A stretch of 64,000 bases of DNA from Hyposmocoma kahamanoa. Lineage: Eukaryota > Arthropoda > Insecta > Lepidoptera > Cosmopterigidae. The stretch covers positions 7,985,482-8,049,481 of the forward strand of contig NW_020654810.1 of assembly GCF_003589595.1 (NCBI RefSeq). Direction: 5' to 3'. The notes under the pieces are model-generated. The model was not told the origin of the DNA, made no database searches, and saw only the letters and a program-made list of their open reading frames with translations. Below are positions 2,077 through 16,894 of the stretch, piece after piece; the first letter of the stretch is position 1, and every line of letters starts with the position of its first letter. The position numbers and the translations under genes are program-made.

Positions 2077-5000
2077 ATGTTCAAATTAAAAATAAACAAT
2101 ACTTGGATCTATGTATTATTAATATACAATATCGCCACAATAATAATTACAATGTATATAACTGGGCAAAACACACCTATCGAAATAATACCTGATGCCA
2201 ATTATCCTTGCTGTGTGAAGAAAACAGTAAGTGATTATTTTACGTATTTGATTTTGAGACTTGGGAAATTACAAATTAGACTGCAAATCGAGTTTCAATT
2301 CTTACACGTTACCGATATGTAGGAAGAGAACAGAAGATTCTGTTCACGGTGGTTCTTAGGCATTCCGTAACATACTCATGGTCATGGATTAATGTAAGTT
2401 ACGGTTCTTGATACGCACGTAACTTCTTCACTTTTTATGTCCTTCCATTGCGTATAATAGCGTCATTATACAGGAGTTTAAATATACATGTTTCTTTACG
2501 AGTATATTCATGACATATAAAGAACAACATTTATCCAATATCTTAAATGGAGGTTATAATCGTAAAAATGGTGTAACCACATTATTTATTTTTCTACAAA
2601 ATTATTTTAATTACATTTGGATGCTATTTTCGTGCATAGAAAATATTCAATTTTCTTATACATGAAAATAGCATCCAAATAATAATTTAAAGTAATAATG
2701 TAGAAAAAAAACTTGAATGTGGATTACACCACTTATGCAGCAGCATGCTGTCTCAATTATGCGACAGTAAAATATCTAAACATTTTTAACTAAAACTCTA
2801 TTAAATAACTTTCCTTTTTAATAATAAAAAATGGCAGCTGATTTATATCCAAACGCAATTCTGTGAACCCAACGCTGTGCGACGTGCTACATACAACGGT
2901 GTCAAAATATACCTCACTTCATTCATATTATCGCAGGCCACGATGGCAGCGCTACGTATTTGCATTTCAAAATGGCAAAGGTTATTGTATCTTTATATTC
3001 AAATGCATTATGTAGGTGTCACAAACGAGGTTTGTTTTACAGGTTCACAATATTAGCATAGTTGGCAACGAGTTTAATGTCGATGGACAACCGCTGCACA
3101 TAATGTCGGGCTCGCTGCACTACTTTCGTGTACCGGCTGCATATTGGACAGATCGGCTCCGCAAATTGAAGGCGGCTGGACTTAACACCGTGTCCACGTA
3201 AGCACTTATACAGGGTTATTTGTAAAGTACTATACTTTTAGGACTATATTACTAATATCATAAACCACAACTTTTGTTCCATTAAGTACTTCTTACAAAA
3301 CAATAATGAACTGTTCAGTTTTTGTTGTACTGTCTGACACTTTTCGTAGCTATAGAGCGCCTTAGCTATTTCTACCGCCAAGCCGTATTATGAAGGTTAT
3401 ACGTTCCGGTTTTTTAGGATATAGATGCTGGTGAAATTACAGGCACATGCTCTCACTTGTCAACTCGGCCGCCGTTAGTTGAAAGAGCGTAATATGTAAT
3501 ATTCGAAAAATGTTGTTATATATACTGCCGTAATCAGTAAAAAAAGGCCAATCGGTCACTATTTTTACTTTCCTAGGTGGATAGCAGTATGAAGTTACCG
3601 GAAGAGAAAAGTAGTTTTTTTGTATATAATTTCTTTAAACATTATTTTCTCGGTTTTGAGGTTTTGTCACAAGCGCCCTTTCAACTAACGGTGGCAGAAC
3701 TCTCAGTGTCACGGACTCGGCGGCAATACCCCTCAGATCTTTGTGATTTATACGTCCGAGTGGCACTACTGCTTACTGCTTTTGACAGACGTGTTACTTA
3801 CTTGTTCTTTTTGTTTGTCTTGCACTAATTGTTCGACCCGTCACTTAAAAAACAATTTGTTTAGATCTCTATAGTTGTGTAGCAACATTTCGCGCGTGTT
3901 GTCATTTAAAAAAGTGGTGGTGGGCACTTTTTTGTTATGACACAGAATTGTCACCGTTTAGAGCGATCTAATTAAATGCTTTTTTTTGTACGAAAGTAAA
4001 ATCTGATGAATTAAAAGTCATGGAAAAAAGAATTGTTGTTTATGATGTTAGTACACAGCCCTGCGAGGTTGTTTGTGTTTTAAAAATAACCCTGTGTAAT
4101 GCCCACATGCATGTCCATCTGCCACACCAGATGAACGCTCTAACTCCTCTTTCTTTACAGGTACGTAGAATGGAGCTTCCACGAACCAGAAGAACGGCGC
4201 TACTCTTTCTCTGGCGACCACGATATAGCGCAGTTCGTGCAAGCCGCTGCCGCTGAAGGCCTTTATGTTCTCCTGCGGCCAGGACCATACATTTGCGCGG
4301 AAAGGGATCTCGTATGTATCCCGTTTATAAAATTGTATAGCATTTACAGAAACGACAGTCCCTGCAGTAAAAACATCAAAACAGGGCGTAAATATGAAAA
4401 TTAATATGTACAATAAACTACCAGTTAGTGTATCTGACTTGGAAATGGCTACATTCAAACAAACGTTAAAACTTTAGTTTGAAAATCACGCTTTTTATAA
4501 AATCAACGAACTTATGGATTCACCTGTCTTGTATAATTTAAGTCTGTATTTTCTGTATTTTGACTTACATATAGGCAATGTACTGTGTTGTCTTGGTGAA
4601 TAAATCATTTTGTCGTGTTTCAGGGTGGACTCCCTTACTGGCTACTTGGCAAATATCCTAATATTAAACTACGAACAACCGATAAAGGTAATTTCAATTT
4701 CTAATTTCCTTGTTTTATTGTTTGTGAGAAGGATATCGAATTGACCTACCGCGTCCCAAGCAGAAGCCGCCTGTTCAAATCCGAGCTCGACTTCTGAGAT
4801 CTCTGTCGATCTCTCTCTCTTAAGTGCGTGTAAATATTAGACAACATAACATACGTTGCTCTGGTCCCAAAGTAAGTAACTAAAGCACTTGTGTTATGGA
4901 AATCGGAAACAAAGACCACAAACCCCCAGACCCAGGACAATATAGAAAAATTCGTTTTCTACATTGACCCCGCCGGGGCTCGAACCCGGGACCTCAGAGA

Positions 5001-11000: not shown

Positions 11001-14000
11001 AGCTGGTGATCCAACATTTAAATATTACGCCATTAGGGAGGTTTTACAGCAGGTAAGTCAAAATTATTTTGTCAACAGCACATCAGACTTTTGTTCGAAA
11101 ATCGCCTAACGGTACAGGATACGTCAATGTGTAGCTTGATGTGCTGTTGACTGTACATTGCTTGACGTCAGATTAGATTTATACCTCTGTATTAAAGTTA
11201 TTTACATTTATAAATGTGTAGTAAGATGATTGATATCATGGTAGTAAAACAGTGATATTCAATAAACGTGATATTACAATTATTAAAGTGACGTCTTTAG
11301 TCAGCCGCTTGTAACTGTAAAGGCACTTAGCTGAGTGTAGAAAAACATTCATAGATTTCACGCAGATGGCGCTACGGCAAATAGTAATTAAAAACCAAAA
11401 ACACAGATCTGCAACAAGCACATGAAACAATTCGTAAGGTCTTCGGGTTCGTTCCGTACCTCAGTTGGGAGAGCGATAGGCGCTGGTTCGAATCCAGCCG
11501 GATTGAAGGAATTTTTCTTAGTGTTCGATCTGTGTATTAATTAAATTATAACAAAATTGTGTAGTGAGATCTCACACAATGCGTCGGGCCAACACGTGAT
11601 CAGGCAGCAACGGCAGGAAAGCAGCAGCTCATACCTATCACTACCACCGATACATAATCATATAAAAAATAAAATCCGCAATTTAAAGCCATTAATTTTC
11701 TATTTAGTATTAAATTAACTAGTATATGAGTGATTGTTATATTTAAATGTATTTTTAATTTCAGAACGATTCAAATTTAAAGACGGTCCCGATTCCGGCA
11801 GAATCTCATAAAGGCAATTACGGAAAGGTGTCACTGAGCAGAAAAATAAGCTTACTGTCTCCTGAAGGGCGATCGCGTTTGGGAAAGAAGTATTCTGATG
11901 TCACAGGATCGAAATTGCCGACATTTGAGAGTTTACGTCAGCGCGCCGGTCTTATGTTGTATGAAACGACGGTTAACGATACAAACGGAATATTGGAAAT
12001 CAAATTGCCTAGGGATCGCGTTTACGTTTTCGTTGATAAAGTAAGTATTATTATTTTTAGTACCAGTACAGCTCCTTGTAAAAGAGTTCGTTTAGGGAAG
12101 TACCTATAGCACTTTACCTATTTCTGTCGCCAAGCAGTAATGCGAGCCAGTTTAGAAGGGTAAGGGTGCTTGTGAAGTTACAGGCACGTGAGACTTGTCA
12201 ACTTGTGTCTCAAGGGTTTGCAACTGCTACGGACGGGCTTGCTATTAGGCGCACGATTTGTTCATCCCGTTTCTTGTTATCCGTAAAAAAGTAACGTTGA
12301 CAATTTTGTCTTCTACCACAAAAGCTATCATTATTGTAATTTTTTCTTTTGGTGGTAAGCGACACCGCTCATATGCGGTACCGCTCAGAGTTTTAAATCA
12401 CAAAGAACTGAGGGGTACTGCCACTGCGCCGGTCACACTAAATTACAAATTTTGACTTTAAAAAAGTATTCTTCGAGCAAAGTAGTTTTTTTTATTTATT
12501 TTCACATGCTGGTAACGAAAACAATAATTATTTATATAAATTAGTTTCCATTTATTAGAAATAAAAAAATACAAAATTATGCAAAAATATCAAAAAAAAT
12601 TACTGTTATTCTATTCATTAGCAGAATTTCGACGACGTTTATTTGCAGCTCTCTTATATTCTGCTTCTGGAACATCCCGATAAATAGTCCAACAATAATC
12701 CGCCAACATTGAAACGTTCCACTTGCCCTGATATCGTTTTTCCATGTTTGCGATGTCCTGATGGAAACGCTCCCCATGTTCATCGCTTAAAGCCCCACAA
12801 TTATCCGGAAATAAGTCCAAATGAGAATGTAAAAAGTGTATTTTCAAGGACATATTACAACCTAGTTTTTGGTATGATGATAACATATTTTCGACAAGCT
12901 CAGCATAGTTGTCACTTCTTTTATTTCCCAAAAAGTTTCTTGCCACAAGGCGAAAATCGTTCCAGGCTTGTTTTTCTTTACCTTCTAGCACAGAGTCGAA
13001 ATTAACATCGATAAATAAATTTCTTATTTGCGGACCGATGAATATACCTTCCTTGATCTTAGCTTCCCTTAATCTTGAGAATTTCTGGCGTAGGTATTGA
13101 AAAGCAGCTCCACTTTTGTTCATCGCTTTTACGAAATTTTTCATCAGCCCTAGTTTTATGTGTAATGGTGGAAGTAACACTTTTTGTGGATTAACTAAAG
13201 GGCTATTTTGAACATTTTTTTGCCCAGGTTGAAGTGACTGACGTTGTGGCCATACCTTTTTTGTATAATGCTCTTTTCTATTACGACTATCCCATTCGCA
13301 AACAAAACAACAAAATTTTGTGTAGCCTAATTGTAGCCCAAGCAGCAGAGCTACGACTTTCAAATCTCCGCAGATTTGCCATTGGTGTTCATTATACTTA
13401 ATGCACAACAAAAGAGTTTTCATATTTTCATAAGTCTCTTGCATATGGACTGCGTGAGCAATAGGAATTGAAGGTAAAATATTTCGGTTATGTAACAAAA
13501 CAGCTTTTAAACTTAATTTAGAGCTATCTATGAAAAGCCTCCATTCATTCTGTTTATATGTAATGTTAAGAACTCCCATCAAACCACTGATATCTTTACA
13601 AAAAACTAAACTTTCAACCATTTCAAAATATTGTATCAACTCTTTTTGTCTAGTACGGAAAGCTGTTATAGCCACACCACTTTCTAAAAGATTCCACTGT
13701 TGCAGTCTCGAGCCTAGAAGTTCTGCTTTGTTCTTTGGCAATTCCAAGTCCCTTACAAGATCATTTAATTCAGCTTGCGTTATCATGTGTGGCTGTGATG
13801 ATGTAGTAGGTACTTCGTATTCTGACATTGAGGAAATAGATGGTGAAGTAGATGTGATTTCATCTTTGTTGTCGTTAATTTTAGGAGGTTTGGGGATTGG
13901 GTGAAGATCGCTATGCGGCAGAGGGCGACCAGCCGATGGTACATTTGGATATACTATGGCACTTTTCTTTTTTTTAGAAACACCTTTACCTTTTCCGAAT

Positions 14001-16894
14001 ACTTGGGTTGTCAGGCAGAAATAACAATCAGTTGCGTGATTTGTCGATTCCCGCCATTGCATTGGCACTGCGAAACGAAGTGATGTTTTTTTGCCACTCA
14101 GCCAATTTCTCAAACCTGTAGCACACGAATTGCAGCAGAAATGTGGAACCCAGCTTTTGTCCTGGTGTGATATGTCTTTGTTAAAGTAGTAAGAATAGGC
14201 TTTTTTTATCATAGGCGATATAGAACACCTTTGTTTATTAAATATCACCTCTCCGCAAACGTAACAAAAATTGTCGGGATTATTCACACATTTCCGAGAC
14301 ATTATGTTATAAAATAATTTTTAGTTTCACTTTTTTTTCACTTTTAGCACATTTATTATTCAGTAATACAGAACAGAGCACTAATGTACGATATTTTTAA
14401 CATTTGATGCCAACTAACAAAGTTAATATGAACACTGTCAAGTTGAATGAGGGTAGAATCGTAAAATTTGGGAGATAGGAGGTATCTTGAAAACTTAAAC
14501 TAATAAATTACTTTTACTTATCAAATCGTATTTAGCATGTATAGACAAGCAGAAATTAGTTAAAATTATTTCGGATACTTTTGCATTGTAGACTAGTGTC
14601 ACCCAAATTGACTAGTCCCATCCCCGTGTAATTTCATCAAGAACTCTTACCTTTCAAAACCGGAACTCATTAATGCTCACATTGCTGTTTGTCAACAGAA
14701 ATAGGTTCGGTGGCAGTACTGAACTGGACGAACTCTTTCATAAGAAGGTGTACTGCTAATAGAACGTAATAACAATTTAGCAGTTTTAAGTAAGGAATTG
14801 CACGTATATATTAATAAGTTTTCGCGATTCCATGTACTGCCATAACCTATCTTCATAGGACCTAATGTGTCGTTTCTCGCAGGTATTCTCTGGATTAATA
14901 AACCGAATGACAAATACACACAATTTGTCATTGGAAACAACACCTGGTTCTGTTCTGTCTTTGCTGGTAGAAAATCAGGGACGAATCAATTATGGGTTAC
15001 GTCTGCACGATTACAAGGTGGGTTTAAACTGCTCTCTTTACTTTAATAATATAGGTATCTAATCTTTTTTTTATGAACGAAAATGTACCTTCCATCTCAC
15101 CTGATGAAAAGTGGCAATGGGGTTGACGATCCTGTATTATAATACCTATTCATTTTCGCCTTGAAAAGGCACAAGTTGTAGCGTTCAAGGAACACATTTG
15201 CAGACAGGGAATGCCACTTCAATGCCGTACGCCATGTTTTAAATGTGAAAACATAACGCTTCTTGTGAATCTTGCATAAATCCACAACACAGAGGTGGAA
15301 CCCCAGCTTACGTCTAGTCCTCCCATAATGGAAATAGAATGGTGGAATGATTTCATGCGATTCAGTCGTACAGTCTCCGTGATATATATCTTGTAATCAT
15401 TTAGTTGTCTAGTAGTTTTTTATCTCTCTCATAATAATTATTGTCTGATATCCTTACAGGGTATTCTAGGATCAGTAAAGTTTAATAATAAGAAATTGGA
15501 TGGCAAATGGACTGTAACCGGATATCCGCTGGAACAAATGAATGCTGCAAGTCATACTGTGTCACAAACTAGAGATTATGGCCCGGTGTTATATGAAGGG
15601 AAGCTTACACTACCAGAAGGACAACATCCTTTAGATACATTCCTGGATACTGGTGGTTGGGGAAAGGTATTTATTTATTTAATGTAGTTGAATCACAGAT
15701 ACACTAGTCACATTTACTTAAAATAACATTATCAGCACAACCCGACAATGACGATCTCCGTGGTCGAGTGGCTTGCACACCGGTTTTCATGGTGTCGCCA
15801 TCTCTGAGGCCCCGGGTTCGATACCCGGCCGGCTCAATGTAGAAACTAACCTTTTAATATTGTCTCGAGTGTGGGTGTTTATGGTGCAGTCGTTGTTTCC
15901 GATTTCCATAACACAAGTGCTTTAGTTACTTACTTTGGGATCGGACAACGCATGTGATGTTGTTTAATATTTAAAAAAAAAGTTGAAATACCTCGCCTTA
16001 ATTGCAAACGTGTGGTTCATCGACACATATACAATAAAGACCCTAGTCTCTAATCGCCAATAGTCTGGATTTTCGAAGACGGAGTAAAATGACAGTTCAT
16101 TGCGCAAAAGTGTTGCCCGCTTGTAAGCACCTAGTGATTGCATTCGATAAATATTCTATCGACTATCGACTGAATATGGGTCGCGCTTATGGAATAAATA
16201 GCCGAAAAATACTCCTCGGCCTATCATTCGTCCAATAGGAGTGTGTTGCGTTATTATTATTATAATTACTGAGCACAGGTTTATTTGAAATGTCAATTTT
16301 TGTAAGTTCGTACATACAATATATTTAGAACAATTTCTATAAAAAATACAAAGAGGGGACGTATTTTAAAGTTTTTCTTTTTAAATCAATTTATGTACCT
16401 AGTCAAATCTGCTTAATCTTGTTAAAATGTATATGAATTCTAATTTATTTCGGTACTACTAGTAAGTAGGCCAACTGACAACGTCAGAATTGTGATTGTT
16501 AACGTCATAACAATCACAATTCAGTCATTTTTGGCTAAATTGTAATTTCTGTCACAATCTATCGATAAAACTATCGACAACAACTACATGACTAATCAAA
16601 ATTTTACGAAAATTGGCAACCCAGCAAATGTCATTTTACTACCGTCGTCAAAGAAGATAAAAATAAATATAGTACGTTTATTTTCAGGGATATATCTGGG
16701 TAAACGGGCATAACCTGGGCCGTTACTGGCCGTCGGCGGGCCCGCAGATCACGCTATACGTACCAGGAGTCTGGTTGTACGAAGCGCCGGCGCAAAACGA
16801 GGTGCTTTTACTGGAATTAGAAAAACCATCAGCTGACCTCACTATAGATTTCATTGACACGCCGAAGTTGAACGGTGGAAATTTTGCGAGTTAG
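2077..16894 (+). CDS. Beta-galactosidase, glycosyl hydrolase family 35 (GLB1-like), 12 exons
   Basis: Exons: 2077-2226, 3043-3197, 4161-4311, 4624-4687, 6264-6358, 9966-10143, 10619-10840, 10925-11052, 11765-12040, 14883-15017, 15460-15666, 16688-16894. All junctions are GT-AG, phases match, and the 1968-nt CDS encodes 655 aa, close to human GLB1 (677). Exon 1 encodes a hydrophobic stretch (about residues 10-29), a signal peptide or anchor, so the product should be lysosomal or secreted. The GH35 barrel shows [37 protein letters not shown] with the expected acid/base Glu at about E209, and NSEYYPGW with the expected nucleophile at about E288, then FFGGTNFEF. The C-terminal beta domains end with [10 protein letters not shown] and a Tyr-Val-Pro-Gly strand. 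By family it hydrolyses terminal beta-galactose from glycans. CAERD replaces the usual CAEW. Introns 5 and 9 are swollen by mobile elements. Start choice rests on exon 1 being in phase and supplying the signal segment; a 5' UTR intron is possible. Confidence 0.93.
2570..2730. mobile_element. 161-bp palindromic MITE in galactosidase intron 1
   Basis: Left arm GGTGTAACCACATT and right arm, reverse complemented, GGTGTAATCCACATT; the two halves stay complementary inward to TTTGGATGCTATTTTC. The whole element can fold into one long hairpin. No coding capacity. Confidence 0.7.
3350..3465 (+). repeat. SINE family A, 5' part, interrupted
   Basis: GCCAAGCCGTATTATG, GGTGAAATTACAGGCACATG and ACTTGTCAACTC follow the family order. 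The copy is split by an inverted-repeat element and continues at about 3700-3830 with CCCTCAGATCTTTGTGATTT and GAGTGGCACTACTG. Confidence 0.65.
3466..3699. mobile_element. Short DNA element with inverted repeats, nested in a SINE
   Basis: Left end CCGTTAGTTGAAAGAGCG and right end, reverse complemented, CCGTTAGTTGAAAGGGCG. The SINE is interrupted between ACTTGTCAACTC and CTCTCAGTGTCACGG. A partial, oppositely oriented copy is at about 5288-5413. Non-coding. Confidence 0.6.
3700..3830 (+). repeat. SINE family A, 3' part of the interrupted copy
   Basis: Completes the copy at 3350-3465: CCCCTCAGATCTTTGTGATT and GTGGCACTACTG, then GACAGACGTGTTACTTAC. Confidence 0.6.
4370..4610 (+). repeat. Probable Jockey-like LINE 3' relic in galactosidase intron 3
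   Basis: A short frame encodes [19 protein letters not shown] then KQTLKL and a stop, resembling the C-terminal end of Jockey-type reverse transcriptase ORFs. Fills nearly the whole intron. No longer functional. Confidence 0.4.
4745..5035 (-). repeat. tRNA-headed SINE, minus-strand copy
   Basis: On the minus strand the sequence reads TGGTGTCGCCATCTCTGAGG, CCCGGGTTCGAGCCCCGGC and then AATGTAG, with a tRNA-like B box (GGTTCGAGCC). The plus-strand copy at 15750-15990 matches in the same order. Confidence 0.65.
5015..5205 (+). repeat. Lepidopteran-type SINE/LINE tail repeat (family B)
   Basis: ATGAGCTTTTCGTGAAG, AACCTGCACGTC, AACGTGTGAAGTCCC, GAGAGAAGATCCGTG and a tail GTTGATGATGATG. The same blocks appear at 19090-19255 and 52255-52605. 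Confidence 0.65.
5288..5413 (-). repeat. Second, truncated copy of the 3466-3699 element
   Basis: Reverse complement contains GGTATGAAGTTACCG, AGAGAAAAGTAG, TTTCTTTAAACATTATTTTC and GCGCCCTTTCAACTTACGG, matching 3590-3695 closely. It gives a reference for the right half of that element. Confidence 0.6.
5454..5685 (-). mobile_element. Non-autonomous element with AACCGACTTCAAAAAA-type ends
   Basis: One end reads AAAACCGACCTCAA, the other, reverse complemented, TTAACCGACTTCAAAAAAGG. A second copy in the opposite orientation lies at 49367-49588. Shared internal blocks include GGTACCTCAGA and GTTTGCCACCCTTAGAGG (or their complements). Confidence 0.6.
6531..7575. mobile_element. About 1.05-kb hAT-like non-autonomous element in galactosidase intron 5
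   Basis: Inverted ends GGGGGCCTACTATGAGCT (left, after GCCCT) and the same sequence reverse complemented at the right. The arms match again further inward around AAATTCGTA-x-x-ATGACC. Flanks TTGCTCTA (6523-6530) and TTGCTCTC (7576-7583) could be an 8-bp target duplication with one change, the hAT length. No ORF of significance. Confidence 0.55.
7576..8966. other. Galactosidase intron 5, middle, no gene seen
   Basis: A CG-rich patch near 7780-7930 (repeated CGCGGC steps) stands out from AT-rich surroundings and may be an old repeat. No conserved ORF or recognisable element. Confidence 0.3.
8967..9447. mobile_element. Candidate 480-bp inverted-repeat element in galactosidase intron 5
   Basis: Left end CTAAGAAATAGAGACGAAAT; right end, reverse complemented, CTAGAAATAGAGACGAAAT. 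About 19 bp match with one gap. No coding content; no clear target duplication. Confidence 0.45.
9620..9870. repeat. GC-richer repeat-like block before exon 6
   Basis: About 150 bp near 9670-9800 are rich in CGC and GTGC steps, unlike the intron around them, and keep an open frame by chance. I could not match it to another copy in the window. It looks inserted rather than coding. Confidence 0.3.
10208..10401 (+). repeat. SINE family A, internally deleted copy
   Basis: Starts GAGTTCGTC then CAGGGAAGTACTGCC, GTCAAGCAGTAATGTGAGC, and ends GTCACTTGATATCATAAAAAA. The middle third is absent. Lies in intron 6. Confidence 0.7.
11070..11152. repeat. Short hairpin element, copy 1
   Basis: Arms GTCAACAGCACATCA (11071-11085) and TTGATGTGCTGTTGAC at the right. 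The centre holds TCGCCTAACGGTACAGGATA. Related by arm and centre sequence to 17476-17576 and 25786-25887. Lies just inside intron 8. Confidence 0.6.
11275..11580 (+). repeat. tRNA-derived SINE family C, copy in galactosidase intron 8
   Basis: Contains GATGGCGCTACGGCAAA, then a tRNA-like head with A-box-like ACCTCAGTTGGGAGAGCG and B box GGTTCGAATCCAGCCGG, then GAAGGAATTTTTCTTAGTG and TTCGATCTG. Related copies: 44560-44840, 44945-45130, 61535-61640. Confidence 0.65.
12070..12292 (+). repeat. SINE family A, plus-strand copy in galactosidase intron 9
   Basis: AAGAGTTCGTTTAGGGAAG, GCCAAGCAGTAATGCGAG, GGTAAGGGTGCTTGTGAAG, GACTTGTCAACTTGTGTCTC, then a divergent tail. It faces the inverted copy at 12345-12430, so two SINEs sit head to tail here. 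Confidence 0.7.
12345..12430 (-). repeat. SINE family A, inverted copy, 3' half
   Basis: Reverse complement of the family whose plus copies end TTGATATCATAAAAAA. It reads from GGTGGTAAGCGACACCG to CCACTGCGCC and stops exactly where the inverted-repeat element begins. The rest of the same copy resumes at 14603. Confidence 0.75.
12431..14602 (-). mobile_element. Full-length DNA transposon candidate with terminal inverted repeats, nested in a SINE
   Basis: The left end reads GGTCACACTA then AAT then TACAA; the right end, reverse complemented, reads GGTGACACTA then GTC then TACAA, followed in both by an AAGTAT block. The element carries one minus-strand ORF (12611-14302). Its edges are marked independently: an inverted SINE copy breaks off at 12430 and resumes at 14603 with the next part of its consensus. 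About 15 bp of the SINE are missing at the junction and no target duplication is obvious, so the exact ends or the insertion event may be slightly off. It lies in intron 9 of the galactosidase gene, antisense to it. Confidence 0.75.
12611..14302 (-). CDS. Intact 563-aa DDE-like transposase-type protein with N-terminal zinc-binding cysteines
   Basis: Single uninterrupted ORF. The N-terminal 100 residues contain paired cysteines (C13-x2-C16, C57-x2-C60, C93-x2-C96), suggesting a zinc-binding DNA-contact domain. A Ser/Pro-rich linker (about 105-170) follows. The core shows [17 protein letters not shown] (D259), [18 protein letters not shown] (D313), a CCFVC motif near 331-335, PPLHIKLGL (H381) and [11 protein letters not shown] (E511). 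The D259-D313-E511 spacing, with Cys and His motifs in the insertion, fits an RNase H-like DDE transposase. Proteins with the HGERFHQDI motif recur in arthropod and cnidarian genomes as uncharacterised multicopy genes (my recollection). I infer a transposase because the ORF fills an element with inverted repeats. I cannot name the superfamily. The open frame suggests recent activity or selection. Confidence 0.7.
   Translation of the reverse strand: MSRKCVNNPDNFCYVCGEVIFNKQRCSISPMIKKAYSYYFNKDISHQDKSWVPHFCCNSCATGLRNWLSGKKTSLRFAVPMQWRESTNHATDCYFCLTTQVFGKGKGVSKKKKSAIVYPNVPSAGRPLPHSDLHPIPKPPKINDNKDEITSTSPSISSMSEYEVPTTSSQPHMITQAELNDLVRDLELPKNKAELLGSRLQQWNLLESGVAITAFRTRQKELIQYFEMVESLVFCKDISGLMGVLNITYKQNEWRLFIDSSKLSLKAVLLHNRNILPSIPIAHAVHMQETYENMKTLLLCIKYNEHQWQICGDLKVVALLLGLQLGYTKFCCFVCEWDSRNRKEHYTKKVWPQRQSLQPGQKNVQNSPLVNPQKVLLPPLHIKLGLMKNFVKAMNKSGAAFQYLRQKFSRLREAKIKEGIFIGPQIRNLFIDVNFDSVLEGKEKQAWNDFRLVARNFLGNKRSDNYAELVENMLSSYQKLGCNMSLKIHFLHSHLDLFPDNCGALSDEHGERFHQDIANMEKRYQGKWNVSMLADYCWTIYRDVPEAEYKRAANKRRRNSANE
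14603..14748 (-). repeat. SINE family A, inverted copy, 5' half
   Basis: Continues the copy broken at 12430: GACTAGTCCCAT, AATTTCATCAAG, CTTTCAAAACCGGAACTC and finally CTGGACGAACTCTTTCA all match the reverse complement of the other copies in order. Confidence 0.75.
15018..15459. other. Galactosidase intron 10, nothing further recognised
   Basis: A 442-bp intron with no ORF, tRNA-like box or inverted repeat that I could support. Confidence 0.3.
15750..15990 (+). repeat. tRNA-headed SINE, plus-strand copy in galactosidase intron 11
   Basis: CTCCGTGGTCGAGTGGCTTG (A-box region), TCATGGTGTCGCCATCTCTG, GGGTTCGATACCCGGCCGG (B box), then AATGTAGAAAC. Matches the minus copy at 4745-5035. Its cloverleaf is not a functional tRNA: no intact acceptor stem follows. 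Confidence 0.7.
16071..16655 (+). mobile_element. 585-bp inverted-repeat element, copy 1, in galactosidase intron 11
   Basis: Left end TTCGAAGACGGAGTAAAATG and right end, reverse complemented, GACGACGGTAGTAAAATG. A full-length inverted copy lies at 48383-48912 and shares ATCGACTATCGAC-like and GGCAACACTTTTGCGCA blocks (as complements). No coding capacity; the element ends 32 bp before the last exon. Confidence 0.65.

Follow-up and report, generated by a model that had tools for sequence, protein, structure and literature searches.

What kind of mobile element interrupts a dispersed repeat within a β-galactosidase intron of the lepidopteran Hyposmocoma kahamanoa, and does it belong to a group that already has a name? 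The question is raised by a 64-kb stretch of contig NW_020654810.1 (assembly GCF_003589595.1), hereafter the window, in which a preliminary description had recognized an apparently intact DDE DNA transposon of a superfamily that it could not name. The element is real, and it does not found a new superfamily: its enzyme most likely belongs to the known Chapaev3 group, a relative of RAG1, which cleaves antibody genes. We consider it very probable, on comparison with the published description of Chapaev3, that the locus holds a young, apparently autonomous DNA transposon of this group, which is part of the CMC (or CMCT) clade. This reading is based on the CACTA...TAGTG ends, the 3-bp duplications, the occurrence of three copies in dissimilar surroundings, a complete open reading frame (ORF), a predicted fold of the RAG1/Transib type, and a set of invariant motifs.

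The preliminary description held that a lack of other copies sharing both ends would speak against a transposon. Two other full copies, L005 and L006, are found in the host assembly (728 Mb, 2727 contigs), making three in all, and flanking inverted repeats, whose constant absence from homologues was to count likewise, are present in these three copies, the ones looked at. L005 shares 99.7% identity with the window copy across 2163 aligned bases, and L006, aligned in two parts, 99.6% and 99.3%; in other words, the copies differ by approximately 0.3–0.7%, one insertion aside. L006 is 89 bases longer and holds an insertion that has a 13-bp direct repeat, CCATTTCAAAATA, at its borders; this insertion (approximately 4196–4273) has an internal CTTGGTA repeat and looks like the end of a small retroposon. 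The longest ORF has 563 aa in the window copy, 483 aa in L005, and 261 aa in L006, so the full frame is retained in one copy and broken in two.

Comparison of the flanks shows CACTA...TAGTG ends in all three copies, and the agreement is limited to the sequence from CACTA to TAGTG. The sequences outside are unlike, and the 3-bp duplications differ from copy to copy: TCA in the window (context G-TCA-C), TTA in L005, and TAA in L006 (contexts A-TTA-T and A-TAA-T in these two). The unit originally delimited, 2172 bp at 12431–14602 with ends read as GGT(C/G)ACACTA, is thus slightly too long, the second copy matching its positions 5–2169. Because the other two copies agree with it only from CACTA inward, the GGTCA...TCACC of the window is target DNA containing the TCA duplication, and the C/G mismatch arose because a direct TCA repeat was read as an inverted one. 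An inverted repeat starting at GGT was accordingly rejected; inverted repeats do exist, but they are the shorter ones given in Table 1. The error is instructive, as a short inverted repeat can seem longer than it is when a target duplication adjoins it. It should be mentioned that the ends alone would prove little. Within the window, the 18-base end pattern is matched exactly only at the two ends of the element; with up to three mismatches it is matched seven times, a number reached in 7 of 100 shuffles (mean 3.65).

The insertion site gives a second view of the same boundaries. A repeat does stop at one end of the element and resume at the other, as had been described, although it is established here only as a dispersed repeat, “SINE” (short interspersed nuclear element) being the label of the preliminary description. 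When the element and one TCA are removed, the joined flanks align to two other copies of the repeat in the window (57967–57864 and 17396–17272). At the empty site, GCGCCGGTCACCC stands opposite their GCGCCCGTTACCC and GCGCCCGACGCCC, respectively; relative to these two, the interrupted copy is without 8 bases just right of the site. A third copy (55350–55118) spans the insertion site, yet is itself deleted there. To the left of the element, the dispersed repeat occurs once more, in reverse orientation (12048–12208 versus 14601–14772, 68.6% alike), and therefore two such repeats, inverted relative to each other, enclose the insertion. The placement within a β-galactosidase intron was also borne out, since the exon pieces on both sides match Pfam BetaGal_ABD_1, one with an E-value (E) of 3.9e-5 (24 bits, below the cut-off of 27) and the other with 1.4e-9 (38.3 bits).

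Table 1. Features of the element and its insertion site (window coordinates)
Feature	Position	Strand	Basis
Complete DNA transposon, probably of Chapaev3 type, 2163 bp	12436..14598	-	homology with two other genomic copies stops ≤1 base away on both sides
Left terminal inverted repeat, CACTAAATTACAA	12436..12448	+	same letters in 3/3 copies
Right terminal inverted repeat, CACTAGTCTACAA	14586..14598	-	same letters in 3/3 copies
Target site duplication TCA, left copy	12433..12435	+	copy comparison and empty-site alignment
Target site duplication TCA, right copy	14599..14601	+	copy comparison and empty-site alignment
Transposase ORF, 563 aa, uninterrupted	12611..14302	-	ORF list; 2174 homologues at E ≤ 0.001
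N-terminal zinc module, residues 5–76 (C13-x2-C16, C57-x2-C60), weakly ZAD-like	14075..14290	-	
RAG1/Transib-like catalytic region, residues 175–548	12659..13780	-	
Predicted catalytic D259, end of first β strand of RNase H fold	13526..13528	-	invariant in 85/85; predicted secondary structure
Predicted catalytic D313, just after strand 309–312	13364..13366	-	invariant in 85/85; predicted secondary structure
Predicted catalytic E511, in helix 508–523	12770..12772	-	invariant in 85/85; predicted secondary structure
Interrupted dispersed repeat, left part	12378..12435	.	matches copies 57967–57915 and 17400–17344; end at 12435 from empty-site alignment
Interrupted dispersed repeat, right part	14599..14785	.	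matches copies, e.g., 57898–57774 and 24902–24776; start at 14599 from empty-site alignment

Between the ends lies the single intact ORF that the preliminary description had pointed out; of 7991 candidates scored against its product, 2174 proteins are homologous at E ≤ 0.001. When the window protein was aligned with 84 sequences chosen from the best 120 of these homologues, the proposed triad D259, D313, and E511, standing in the motifs originally named, proved invariant in all 85 sequences, as did C332, C335, L380, H381, H489, and H494. The spacings are equally fixed: 19 residues from D313 to C332, 3 from C332 to C335, 5 from H489 to H494, and 17 from H494 to E511. Further upstream, C57, C60, H89, C93, and C96 are found in 85/85 sequences, and C13 and C16 in 84/85; they may correspond to the N-terminal complex zinc finger (Chapa domain) of Chapaev3. 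RAG1 uses the residues D600, D708, C727, C730, H937, H942, and E962, which have a similar spacing.

At the head of the best 120 homologues stand an 89% identical protein, with a longest contig of 2181 bp, and one from Eumeta japonica that is 95% identical over 81% of the query; many of the 120 have a longest contig of 2–2.6 kb, approximately the size of the element. Others named by the National Center for Biotechnology Information (NCBI) come from Ranitomeya (frog), Pyrocoelia (firefly), Mythimna (moth), and Helobdella (leech), all labelled hypothetical or uncharacterised. No confirmed relative was seen among viral contigs (52 pattern stretches) or the genome contigs of a prokaryotic collection (55), a fold search of BFVD gave nothing at E ≤ 0.001, and neither “GERFHQ” nor “ERFHQDI” was found in the open full-text literature searched.

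The predicted structure has the RAG1-core fold with ZnC2 and ZnH2, and the solved folds that match it best in Foldseek are RAG1, HzTransib, and BbRAGL. D259, D313, and E511 lie on the structural elements where an RNase H fold would place them, as the preliminary description had anticipated, a check judged by structural element. The single protein, compared with the chains of solved structures, did not reach RAG1 or Transib (best E 0.044, unrelated chains). The link to RAG1/Transib therefore rests on fold and motifs, because neither a Pfam family nor a profile match connects the protein with them.

How well does the element agree with Chapaev3? According to PMC4079192, Chapaev3 elements (Garfield, Merrow, and Conan among them) have CAC...GTG ends and 3-bp TWA duplications, with insertion between A and T, and this holds for all Chapaev3 that the paper examined. 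They measure approximately 2.2–2.3 kb and encode one transposase of approximately 560 aa, in which C(2)C, LH, and H(4)H are the characteristic motifs; the silkworm element described there has 2,289 bp and a 556-aa transposase. In the present case, 5'-CAC...GTG-3' termini and a 3-bp duplication occur in 3/3 copies, the DDE residues and all three motifs occur together in 85/85 aligned sequences, and the genomic sequence gives 2163 bp with one 563-aa ORF. The single ORF differs from the two exons of the Garfield and Merrow transposases, but is what the same source reports for most Chapaev3. It is the coincidence of ends, 3-bp duplication, size, and motifs with this published set that argues against a superfamily without name. 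Two further papers place the group more widely: one assigns Chapaev and Chapaev3 to the Transib superfamily and describes for them an N-terminal zinc domain, “Chapa”, that is also present in RAG1 (PMC4411706), and in the other the clade is named CMCT, with duplications of 2–5 bp, mostly CA..TG ends, and several deeply diverged lineages (PMC12730594).

Several observations weigh against this assignment. The TWA rule fits two of the three copies, the window insertion being TCA between G and C, and only one of the three full copies found has a complete frame. The Foldseek template modelling (TM) scores to RAG are low (0.34–0.43 by query; predicted TM-score 0.63), and three other HzTransib entries score just 10.8–12.0, the same as the P element. 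No Pfam family is assigned to the transposase (a single Pfam family appears at E ≤ 10), and no profile match to solved RAG1 or Transib chains was obtained, the one match (E 1.9) being unrelated. Moreover, the invariance of the motifs is partly owed to closeness, because the 84 aligned homologues, drawn from the best 120, are 54–89% identical.

Some of these points could also be expected of a separate, unnamed lineage within the CMCT clade, sister to Chapaev3 and working in the same way. The lack of a Pfam family and the TCA insertion would suit such a lineage, as would the deeply diverged lineages reported in PMC12730594 and the fact that the fit to Chapaev3 was made by published description. 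We nevertheless regard it as improbable, since the three motifs, combined with the element's length and its 3-bp duplication, make up the published Chapaev3 set, and the spread of Chapaev3 through Bombyx, Papilio, Danaus, fishes, lampreys, and other animals (PMC4079192) parallels that of the homologues in moths, firefly, frog, and leech.

Assignment to Chapaev3 also has to be set against the other transposons that the ends, duplications, or fold call to mind. CACTA/EnSpm elements share the CACTA ends and the 3-bp duplication; they are usually longer than 2163 bp, and their TNP2-type transposase (Pfam Transposase_21) was not matched by the window protein (E ≤ 10) and is not among the best 25 of 35 families for the 85 sequences, no Pfam transposase domain being matched here. 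PIF/Harbinger also makes 3-bp TWA duplications and was set aside because the predicted fold is of the RAG1/Transib type, C(2)C and H(4)H are present, and no Pfam match was seen; hAT and P have 8-bp target site duplications, unlike the 3 bp of all three copies. That the element is itself a Transib or a RAG-like (RAGL, ProtoRAG) transposon is very unlikely. The best-matching solved folds would favor it, as would the likeness of the CACTA ends to the RAGL consensus of protostomes, CACTWMCAAAC..., but the duplications of these elements are almost always 5 bp (consensus and duplication length both from PMC7204232). RAGL moreover carries a RAG2-like gene (RAG2L), and the longest other ORF overlapping 11500–15500 has 124 aa; the sequence profile finds no RAG1 or Transib chain. 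The 3-bp duplication thus contradicts the classification, and the mechanism may still be common to both.

The element has older company. A protein search of the genome gave at least 29 matches (these counts are lower bounds), six of which are pieces of the three copies. The remaining 23, at 19 places, are fragments with 28–55% identity, and stop codons interrupt 21 of them. Near-identical copies together with these degraded fragments indicate a young family on top of older, mostly broken relatives. The fragment places, on C199, C408, C2684, and other contigs, point to earlier waves of the same group. Five degraded loci (L036–L040) were searched for CAC...GTG termini accompanied by a 3-bp repeat, each against 20 block shuffles. 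In four of them the shuffles equalled or surpassed the best score, and in L038 a pair lacking the 3-bp repeat reached 14, the shuffle maximum being 13. The scan has little power, because the true ends of the controls scored 12 in L005 (tied first, listed third) and in L006 (first), below the best shuffles at 14. By eye, L036 (near 3100) and L038 (near 3226) have in common a CAC...GTG right end (15/16 bases), followed in L038 by TTATTA. This is suggestive, not proof; the common end may come from an earlier Chapaev3 family of this genome. A reading of the locus as a domesticated host gene or a dead relic, merely resembling a transposon, would agree with the few copies, the two broken frames, and the degraded state of most older relatives, but has hardly any probability given the exact ends, duplications, and unlike flanks at three places, the small divergence of the copies, and the complete ORF of the window.

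From the anatomy of the three copies, a cut-and-paste-type insertion with a 3-bp stagger is shown, and the Chapaev3-type element almost certainly moves in this way with the triad D259-D313-E511. The transposase would bind the two element ends with its N-terminal zinc region and the segment preceding the RNase H core, and would pair them as a dimer; cutting by the triad with two metal ions, like the dimer, is suggested by RAG1, Transib, and related enzymes. The freed 3' ends would then be joined to a TNA target with the 3-bp stagger. C332/C335 and H489/H494 may hold a zinc ion that anchors the insertion within the protein to its catalytic core. RAG1 and Transib suggest by analogy that a nick, followed by a hairpin on the flanking DNA, may be the route of cleavage, and we lean moderately toward hairpinned flanks.

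The N-terminal zinc module deserves separate mention. PMC4411706 describes the Chapa region as common to Chapaev3 transposases and the N-terminal part of RAG1. The likeness of the present module to the zinc-finger-associated domain (ZAD) of insect transcription factors is weak but consistent, the signal appearing in the fold comparison and in a minority of sequences. A profile (A4; 18 sequences chosen from 30 of 37 diverse ones) had no match among solved structures at E ≤ 10, and the window N-terminus alone found just antibodies and YchJ (E 0.047 and up). No paper in the open full-text literature searched has “zinc-finger-associated domain” together with “Chapaev”. Homology between the Chapa region and ZAD is a tentative proposal, which we think is more probably wrong than right.

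What, then, does this locus mean? The window copy, complete and accompanied by young sisters, is a candidate active transposon of compact size (2.2 kb). The analysis also suggests that the uncharacterised “HGERFHQDI” proteins, with their 2174 relatives at E ≤ 0.001, are Chapaev3 transposases with a catalyst related to RAG1.
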